Shown here one piece after another: positions 16,225-52,506 of a DNA stretch of 64,000 nt; position 1 is the stretch's first letter; each line of letters starts with the position of its first letter. The position numbers were made by a program, and so were the translations under genes. The DNA is from Methanococcus voltae. GTDB lineage: Archaea; AGJL01; Methanococci; Methanococcales; Methanococcaceae. Below the pieces are notes generated by a model. The model was not told the origin of the DNA. It saw only the letters and a program-made list of their open reading frames with translations, and did not search any database. The DNA lies in NCBI RefSeq assembly GCF_017875395.1, contig NZ_JAGGMO010000002.1:186001-250000 (forward strand), given 5' to 3'.

Positions 16225-16286
16225 TTGGTGGATGATGAACGGAGTAGCTTCTGATTTCATGATGATTTTGATCCTACTGACACCAA
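16225..16286 (+). ncRNA. C/D box guide sRNA 2 (23S rRNA PTC-loop guide)
   Basis: A compact 62-nt C/D RNA. Closing stem TTGGTG (16225-16230) pairs perfectly with CACCAA (16281-16286). Box C is ATGATGA at 16232-16238, D' CTGA at 16251-16254, C' ATGATGA at 16259-16265 after a 4-nt spacer, and D CTGA at 16277-16280. The D' guide ACGGAGTAGCTT is complementary to AAGCUACUCCG, which fits the archaeal 23S stretch just before GGGGAUAAC in the peptidyl-transferase loop; the fifth-nucleotide rule predicts a methylated U near E. coli position 2438. The D guide TTTTGATCCTA has no target I can name. Confidence 0.92.
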
Positions 16287-16358
16287 ACTTTTTATTGTAA
16301 ATATATAGTAACTATTTTATTGTTTTATTTGAAAATAATGGTTATTTAGCTTTTAGCT

Positions 16359-16435
16359 AATTAGTGAATGATGAATCTTTATCTTCTGATTAACTTAACA
16401 ATTCATGATGAAAGATGGGCGAGCTGACACTAATT
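16359..16435 (+). ncRNA. C/D box guide sRNA 3
   Basis: A 77-nt C/D RNA 72 bp after sRNA 2. The closing stem AATTAGTG (16359-16366) pairs with CACTAATT (16428-16435), eight perfect pairs. Box C ATGATGA is at 16368-16374, D' CTGA at 16386-16389, C' ATGATGA at 16405-16411 and D CTGA at 16424-16427. Guides are ATCTTTATCTT before D' and AAGATGGGCGAG before D, expecting targets AAGAUAAAGAU and CUCGCCCAUCUU, which I could not place. It may share the transcript of sRNA 2; an alternative TATA lies near 16300. Confidence 0.92.
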
Positions 16436-50808: not shown

Positions 50809-51174
50809 TTATTGGATTAATCCACTCATTAATTTTCCGATAGATATTACATCTACGCCTTTTCCCAACCCAAATTCGTATTCCACACTTCCAATCACAA
50901 GCTTTATTTCACTGTCTAAATCAAATGTTCCGGAATTTTGGATAGCATAGCTATTAATTTTACTATATTGAAAAAACCTAAATTCTTTCTTTTTTCCAGT
51001 TAATCCTTGTGCATTCATCATTATTATTCTTGACGGAGTAAATACCAATTCATCACGCAATCCTTTAAATGAACATAATATTTCTTCCCCATCCAATAAA
51101 AATTCTTTAAAAAATGGATTTTCATTTCCTTTATTGTCTTTTCCAAAAAAGCCCAATTTTACAACATTTGTCAT
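50809..51174 (-). CDS. PH-domain-like protein (YvbH/bPH type)
   Basis: 121 residues forming the bacterial pleckstrin-homology pattern: GEEILCSFKGLRDELVFTPSRIIMMN is the classic opening, followed by the RFFQYSKINSYAIQNSG strand pair and the C-terminal helix (DVISIGKLMSGL). In other organisms such proteins form ring oligomers; the function here is unknown. ATG 51174 has GAGGGTACAT upstream; the frame extends to 51192 without a site. Downstream A-rich heptad repeats (about 50780-50805) are U-rich in the transcript. Confidence 0.82.
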   Translation of the reverse strand: MTNVVKLGFFGKDNKGNENPFFKEFLLDGEEILCSFKGLRDELVFTPSRIIMMNAQGLTGKKKEFRFFQYSKINSYAIQNSGTFDLDSEIKLVIGSVEYEFGLGKGVDVISIGKLMSGLIQ

Positions 51175-51397
51175 ATGTACCCTCATTTTCATTTTTTTTG
51201 AGTATTAATACATTAATTTTAATAAAATGTGGCATTATATATTGTTAATTATACAAGTTTTCTGTTATTCTTTTTATATATTATTTTTCATTTAATTTGG
51301 ATAGTATATATCTTAAAAAATAAAAATAACTCTTGAAATACAGGATAAATTGGTAAATTTAATCTAAATAAAGTTTAAAATGAAGTTTAAAAAAGGG

Positions 51398-51506
51398 TGC
51401 TCTCAGTATCTGTGTATTCATCATTTTCAAATTGCCATAAACTCATAATCCGATACACTATGATGGCAATATTGACTTCAGTAGAGATGACAATCATCAT
51501 CGAGCA
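51398..51506 (-). ncRNA. C/D box guide sRNA 4 with a long hairpin insert between D' and C'
   Basis: Read on the minus strand from 51506: closing stem TGCTC (51506-51502) pairs with GAGCA (51402-51398). Box C ATGATGA is 51500-51494, the guide TTGTCATCTCTA follows, D' CTGA is 51481-51478, C' ATGATGA is 51424-51418, the guide ATACACAGATA follows, and D CTGA is 51406-51403. All four boxes match consensus. The D'-C' spacer is 53 nt instead of the usual handful, and contains an 8-bp stem, ATTGCCAT (51470-51463) with ATGGCAAT (51438-51431). Targets would be UAGAGAUGACAA and UAUCUGUGUAU; neither is placed. A TTTA repeat lies just upstream. Confidence 0.85.
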
Positions 51507-51696
51507 TTTTATTTTTTACATTATTTATTTATTTATTTATTTATTTTTTTTTGAGTTATATTTAAGATACCTGTTATTTTATATAAAACTTAAACATTTA
51601 TAATATATTTATAATATTTAAAGACATATTTTTAATTATAGCTATCAAAAATAAAATAATTTAAAAATATAATTTAAAATAATATTTGGTGATAAT

Positions 51697-52506
51697 GTGG
51701 ATAAAATTGATATATTATTAGTTAATGATGATGGAATTCAATCGAATGGACTATTGGAATTAAAAAATTCATTGGAAAGCAATTTTGATGCAAATGTGAC
51801 TGTTGTAGCTCCTTCAAATCAACAAAGTGGTATCGGAAGAGCTATAAGTTTATTTGAACCCCTTAGGATAACAAAAGTTAAACTTCCAGACTGTACCGAA
51901 GGTTTTGCCGTTTCTGGAACGCCTACAGACTGTGTTGTTCTTGGAATATTTAAGATACTTGATAGAATACCAGATTACGTGATATCTGGAATAAATATTG
52001 GTGAAAATTTAGGTACTGAAATCACCACTTCCGGAACTTTAGGAGCTGCTTTTGAAGGGGCTCATCACGGTGCTAAGTCAATAGCTTGTTCATTACAGGT
52101 TAAAACTGACGATATTAAATTTAATGAGGGTCATGCTCCTGTTGAATTTAAAAATTCAGCTAAAATATTGAGCAATGTGCTTAAAAAATCTATTGACGGT
52201 AACGTATTTGATAGCGGATGTGATGTCTTAAACGTGAATGTACCGCATGAAGCAGATGCTCAAACACCTTGGGAAATCACTACACTCGCTAAAAAAATGT
52301 ATACTACCCATATTGACCAGAGAAAAGACCCTAGAGGCAGAGATTACTACTGGATTGATGGTAGCCCAGTATATGACGAAGAAGAAGGTACGGATGTGCA
52401 CGCCGTTAGAAATAAAAATAATGTTTCAATTACGCCTCTTACTTTAGATACTACCTTGAAAAATTTAGAATTGTTTAAAAAAGAATATTCTGATAAATTA
52501 ATTTAA
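51697..52506 (+). CDS. surE: 5'-nucleotidase SurE
   Basis: A metal-dependent phosphatase releasing nucleosides from nucleoside monophosphates. 269 residues with the metal site LLVNDDGIQSNG at residues 7-18, APSNQQSGIGRAIS, SGTPTDCVVLG, SGINIGENLGTEITTSGTLGAAFEGA, all in family order. GTG start with GGTGATAAT directly before it. The gene is monocistronic; a U-rich decamer repeat follows. Confidence 0.96.
   Translation: MDKIDILLVNDDGIQSNGLLELKNSLESNFDANVTVVAPSNQQSGIGRAISLFEPLRITKVKLPDCTEGFAVSGTPTDCVVLGIFKILDRIPDYVISGINIGENLGTEITTSGTLGAAFEGAHHGAKSIACSLQVKTDDIKFNEGHAPVEFKNSAKILSNVLKKSIDGNVFDSGCDVLNVNVPHEADAQTPWEITTLAKKMYTTHIDQRKDPRGRDYYWIDGSPVYDEEEGTDVHAVRNKNNVSITPLTLDTTLKNLELFKKEYSDKLI

Follow-up and report, generated by a model that had tools for sequence, protein, structure and literature searches.

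The locus holds a predicted C/D-box sRNA gene of 109 nt on the minus strand of the window, i.e. the whole 64,000-nt stretch of Methanococcus voltae DNA that was analysed. It is flanked by surE (51697-52506, plus strand) and by a gene for a PH-domain protein (50809-51192, minus strand). All positions are those of the window, and as the RNA is read from the minus strand, its 5′ end has the higher coordinate. Comparisons within the genus Methanococcus were made on seven genomes, G000 to G006, G000 being the window's own. In RNA order, the gene reads UGCUC-G-AUGAUGA (C)-UUGUCAUCUCUA-CUGA (D′)-53 nt-AUGAUGA (C′)-AUACACAGAUA-CUGA (D)-GAGCA, and its features are the following:

51398-51506, minus: predicted C/D-box sRNA gene, sR55-type, 109 nt; RNA 5′ end at 51506; boxes by direct reading; orthologs in 7/7 genus genomes; sub-threshold Rfam sR55 match
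51502-51506, minus: terminal stem, 5′ strand UGCUC; partner 51398-51402; invariant in G000, G005 and G006
51494-51500, minus: box C, AUGAUGA, by direct reading
51482-51493, minus: D′ guide UUGUCAUCUCUA; 11-nt pairing with 23S rRNA CAGAGAUGACAA, helix 88 region; covaries with its target across species; predicted methylated nucleotide is the fifth (G)
51478-51481, minus: box D′, CUGA, by direct reading
51425-51477, minus: hairpin insert, 53 nt, from D′ to C′; fold P = 0.004; compensatory changes in relatives
51464-51470, minus: insert middle stem, 5′ strand AUUGCCA; pairs with 51431-51437; two pairs changed on both sides
51450-51456, minus: predicted apical loop of the insert; UAUCGG common to G000, G005 and G006
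51438-51442, minus: 5-nt 3′ bulge of the insert; equal size in G006
51431-51437, minus: insert middle stem, 3′ strand UGGCAAU; pairs with 51464-51470
51418-51424, minus: box C′, AUGAUGA, by direct reading
51407-51417, minus: D guide AUACACAGAUA; no convincing target in rRNA or tRNA
51403-51406, minus: box D, CUGA, by direct reading
51398-51402, minus: terminal stem, 3′ strand GAGCA; pairs with 51502-51506

All four boxes and the 5-bp closing stem are perfect, and the C/D kink-turn spacing is 3 bases from the stem to the first GA of box C, and 0 after box D. The RNA thus has the sequence features of an archaeal C/D-box RNA: RUGAUGA and CUGA boxes at both positions, a terminal stem, and a D′ guide complementary to rRNA. 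A preliminary description of this DNA had proposed a C/D sRNA with these coordinates and boxes; direct reading and the seven orthologs bear it out.

Folding of the isolated 109-mer yielded a competing structure, with box C paired to the D′ guide, and the fold of the whole molecule was only mildly better than that of shuffled sequences (z = -1.3). Promoter and terminator scans at the locus, with bacterial models unsuited to archaea, detected nothing above chance. A plus-strand ORF at 51397-51603 (68 aa) was rejected as a gene, having no Pfam match. A run of ATTT/AAAT tetranucleotide repeats occupies positions 51521-51550, just upstream of the sRNA 5′ end on the surE side.

Relatives and family membership

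When the 109 bases were searched against 41 genomes, matches were obtained in the seven genus members and nowhere else. The match covered the full length in G005 (98% identity), and reached 82% in G006; for G001 to G004 it was limited to the segment made of box C, the D′ guide and box D′, from which the complete RNA could be recognised by eye. A query restricted to box C and the D′ guide extended the RNA to 10 more genomes of the family, from two other genera, and a search with the Rfam sR55 model added a third genus (G009 and G011). A contig-wide pattern scan returned mostly chance bacterial matches, and only its named Methanothermococcus records were used.

The sR names are those of Pyrococcus guides. 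At curated thresholds, Rfam gave no match at 51398-51506. The sR55 model (RF01307) nevertheless aligned to box C, the D′ guide and box D′ (consensus GAUGAuGAGUGUCAUCCCUgCUGA) with 23.5 bits and an E-value of 4e-4, which falls below its gathering cut-off of 35 bits, a threshold reached by none of the 36 genomes of the phylum. The window RNA resembles archaeal sR55 in its C box, D′ box and D′ guide (GUGUCAUCCCUG in the family, UUGUCAUCUCUA here), and its D′ guide is aimed at a helix-88 target, one mark of sR55. It differs by its size: the family is 65 nt long, leaves no room for a long insert, and is unconserved in its D′-to-C′ part. In Methanothermococcus and its sister genera (G007-G011, G013, G016, G018-G021), the sR55-like guides have the D′ guide and 23S target of the window RNA, but a D′-C′ spacer of 3-8 nt and another D guide, GACCUGGGGUAN or similar. 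Judged by these motifs, the window RNA is a functional sR55-type C/D-box guide.

Guides and targets

The window genome's own assembly contains no 16S or 23S gene, and the target was therefore read in G005, the nearest relative. Its 23S rRNA offers an 11-nt uninterrupted Watson-Crick match to the D′ guide, CAGAGAUGACAA, leaving unpaired only the first guide base, which adjoins D′. Among shuffled D′ guides, an 11-nt match in 16S and 23S together occurred in 0.2% of cases (P about 0.002). The site is the 3′ strand of the helix-88 hairpin of 23S rRNA, and the fifth base from D′ pairs with a G that MAFFT aligns to about E. coli position 2422, the alignment being loose in that hairpin. From the five-nucleotide rule, we infer that the sRNA directs 2′-O-methylation of this G.

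Guide and target also change together. In G000, G005 and G006 the guide ends in CUCUA, facing CAGAG in the 23S rRNA (read in G005 and G006), while in G001 to G004 it ends in CCCUG, facing CAGGG. The covarying position is the fourth of the guide, which adjoins the nucleotide predicted to be modified. The helix-88 5′ strand, opposite the guide target, carries the matching compensatory change, from AACCCCUG to AACCUCUG, so that the covariation involves the guide and both rRNA strands. At the level of sequence, the D′ half of the sRNA is demonstrably under selection. This three-way covariation is good evidence for a selected helix-88 methylation, in a mesophile with very few guides; M. maripaludis C5 keeps 7 of them (PMC4644070). 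Taken with the presence of the RNA in all seven genus genomes and the 11-nt 23S complement, it places the signal far beyond chance, and we conclude from the compared genomes that the locus is a real, conserved guide RNA.

Methylation of helix 88 has a parallel in yeast, where snR48 guides the modification of G2791 and G2793 in the large-subunit rRNA (PMC5389607). As predicted for the window RNA, snR48 is a 2′-O-methylation guide acting on helix 88 via its D′ motif; the region looks the same, the likeness being drawn at the level of the region. snR48 differs from the window RNA in having an unusual D′ box, by which two nucleotides are modified.

The D guide takes three forms: GACCUGGGGUAN in the other genera, AUACAGGGUUN in G001 to G004, and AUACACAGAUA in the window RNA. 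None of the Methanococcus forms matched 16S or 23S rRNA better than shuffled guides did, no target was detected among the tRNAs of the own genome, and in the G001-G004 genomes ten-base complements of AACCCTGTAT / AUACAGGGUU occurred at no site common to all four. For now, the D guide would thus be classed as an orphan guide. Its conservation among G001 to G004, except for the last position, adjoining box D, speaks against simple decay. Pairing of the D guide with the other strand of helix 88, which would have made the RNA a chaperone of the N. equitans sR17 type (PMC4644070), was rejected: the 6 contiguous pairs found were no better than with shuffled guides.

The hairpin between D′ and C′

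The spacer between D′ and C′, put at about 53 nt in the preliminary description, is exactly 53 nt when C′ is counted as AUGAUGA, as was done throughout. By comparison, orthologs in three other genera of the family have spacers of 3-8 nt, far below this value, and the short loop expected of a k-loop-type C′/D′ motif is absent. Spacers are 53 nt in G005 as well, 55 nt in G006, 47 nt in G003, and 34 nt in G001, G002 and G004. Since all seven Methanococcus RNAs have 34-55 nt where the three other genera have 3-8 nt, the hairpin is, within this sample of genomes, a genus-specific expansion.

The window insert is predicted to form a stem in three parts (4 + 7 + 5-7 bp), interrupted by a bulge of one base on the 5′ side and one of 5 nt on the 3′ side. 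The stem of the preliminary description is therefore present, but is longer than the 8 bp given, and interrupted. Folded alone, the insert reaches -15.1 kcal/mol, compared to a mean of -7.5 for its dinucleotide shuffles (P = 0.004). A hairpin fold was obtained for the inserts of all seven genomes, and those of G005 (P 0.007), G001 (0.003), G003 (0.001) and G004 (0.001) also beat their shuffles; the G002 and G006 inserts alone did not (P 0.12 and 0.14).

The insert sequences of the genus are partly unrelated to one another. G000 and G006 are nevertheless built alike, with a stem of 4 bp, a bulge of 1 nt on the 5′ side, 6-7 bp, a bulge of 5 nt on the 3′ side, an upper stem and a loop containing UAUCGG. 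In the alignment of G000, G005 and G006, all 15 chosen insert pairs were kept (100% of cells), two of them being changed in both bases and two in a single base; when partners were slid in this pair model, pairing fell below 50%. The corresponding shuffle control is weak, as only three closely related sequences enter it, and 56 of 500 shuffles reached the observed covariation value. The G000 and G005 RNAs show only two differences, which together turn one C-G pair into U-A. The segment UAUCGGAUUAUG is invariant among G000, G005 and G006, despite the changes in flanking stem positions. Conservation of the inserted stem in other Methanococcus genomes, with compensatory changes, had been put forward in the preliminary description as the way to check the insert, and both were observed. 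Such maintained pairing favours a mild structural role for the stem.

A second C/D RNA with a D′-C′ hairpin, of 39 nt, was found in the same genome outside the window (G000:C2:328266-328331, minus strand). Its D guide pairs over 11 nt with the intron-containing tRNA-Met, C34 being in fifth place, and its D′ guide over 10 nt with tRNA-Lys(UUU). By these pairings it is a tRNA-Met C34 guide (sR-tMet / sR49-like), which probably also targets tRNA-Lys(UUU); it therefore shares the hairpin insert with the sR55-type RNA, but not the 23S target. The D-guide pattern of this RNA was present in 28 of the 36 genomes of the order. Its orthologs have short spacers in Methanocaldococcus-like genomes and in most of the family, a 57-nt hairpin in G006, and an independent, unrelated 47-nt hairpin in G008, from another genus of the family. 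An intron-containing tRNA at G000:C1:248344-248458, apparently elongator tRNA-Met, was labelled Ser(cga) by ARAGORN, probably because of its intron.

Role of the insert and other C/D guides

The sR55 guide family and the internal kink-turns of archaeal guides are already known. The new points are the size of the insert, its fixation throughout the lineage, and its recurrence in a second guide. No description of such Methanococcus inserts was found in the literature, of which few primary papers were covered, and priority is not established.

The reading we prefer, with a probability of roughly 0.6, is that of a functional sR55-type helix-88 guide whose Methanococcus hairpin is an apical stem, giving an internal kink-turn-like C′/D′ motif and aiding the C′/D′ half. 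In Methanococcus, the loop of 3-8 nt was replaced by a hairpin of 34-55 nt that varies in sequence but retains its stem. As an apical stem (stem I beside the GA pairs of the boxes), the hairpin would convert the C′/D′ kink-loop into a kink-turn-like motif, at which L7Ae and Nop5 could still assemble. It would point out of the particle, and help the C′/D′ half, the one that methylates the D′ target, to form or to remain intact.

The position of the stem relative to the boxes differs among the RNAs. In G001, G003, G004 and the tRNA-Met guide, the stem follows D′ without a gap, and 2 nt separate its end from C′; the bulge on the C′ side is 4 nt, not 3, in these three genomes. The window RNA, G005 and G006 have 2-3 unpaired nt on each side between insert stem and boxes, so that strict kink-turn geometry is not attained there. 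In archaea, the C′/D′ motif is described as an internal k-turn where a helix flanks the kink, and as a k-loop where a loop does (PMC8413462), and in sR26 the k-loop was swapped for a k-turn to stabilise the particle, leaving its oligomeric state unchanged (PMC7089733). In internal k-turn C′/D′ motifs and in the engineered st-sR26, as in the window RNA, the apical loop beside C′/D′ gives way to a helix (PMC8413462, PMC7089733). While st-sR26 is a laboratory construct, the Methanococcus hairpin is natural and genus-wide, has a C′ side of 4 nt or looser, and extends up to 55 nt. Because such helix-for-loop motifs are already described in archaeal guides (PMC8413462), the insert need not disturb the particle.

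A disturbance of this kind was implied in the preliminary description, which took the D′-C′ spacing to set the symmetry of the particle. This argument does not hold, since the insert lies outside both motifs and leaves the distance from C/D to C′/D′ unaltered. For the same reason, we regard as very improbable that the insert parts the half-particles, leaving a working D′ half and a decaying D half. The D guide is indeed wholly different from the GACCUGGGGUAN of other genera, and its rRNA and tRNA matches do not exceed chance, which is compatible with uncoupling. Yet all seven species have perfect boxes C′ and D, and the near-constant AUACAGGGUUN of G001 to G004 suggests selection. A neutral origin, in which the outward-facing C′/D′ apical loop tolerates palindromic AT-rich hairpins gained by slippage or duplication, function being unchanged, is less easily dismissed, although we hold it to be unlikely. 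It would account for the wide variation of the insert in length and sequence within the genus (34-55 nt), for orthologs of other genera that do without it, and for similar inserts in the tRNA-Met guide of G000, G005 and G006 and, separately, of G008. However, a neutral insert is expected to lose its pairing, and here a hairpin persists in all seven species, with compensated stem changes.

The preliminary description had also envisaged a third function for the hairpin, as an extra protein site or an antisense loop; a protein could, for instance, bind at the 5-nt bulge and UAUCGG loop. The invariance of UAUCGGAUUAUG next to changing stem positions, and the 5-nt 3′ bulge kept in G000 and G006, are in its favour. 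Yet the loop is unconserved in G001 to G004, where the remaining RNA is kept. Its antisense version finds no backing either: no complement of the loop in 16S, 23S or tRNA exceeded shuffled controls, and among the three genomes sharing the loop, perfect 12-mer complements had no common site except the sRNA gene itself. We consider a third function improbable. It is likewise doubtful that the C′/D′ loop of Methanococcus guides is an evolvable expansion site, the hairpins of at least two sRNAs being accessory modules for protein docking or regulation; if true, archaea would have in them an equivalent of the elaborate internal parts of eukaryotic snoRNAs.

The family amounts to a natural experiment on the role of the internal motif in methylation guides, as orthologs with the same target carry either a loop of 3-8 nt or a hairpin of 34-55 nt. 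Loop and hairpin forms can be compared directly for the effect of the apical part on assembly, and on the half of the particle served by the D′ guide.

The own genome has three further C/D RNAs, whose spacers measure about 3-16 nt, and two of them lie in the window near 16.25 and 16.4 kb. These two are tandem plus-strand sRNAs (16225-16290 and 16360-16435) with short or moderate D′-C′ spacers; the D′ guide of the first, ACGGAGUAGCUU, partially matches 23S AAGCUACCCCGG, a stretch shortly downstream of the helix-88 target. At G000:C5:115744-115772, on the minus strand, a C/D sRNA was observed whose D′ guide AAAGAGGGUUAU pairs over 11 nt with 23S AUAACCCUCUU.
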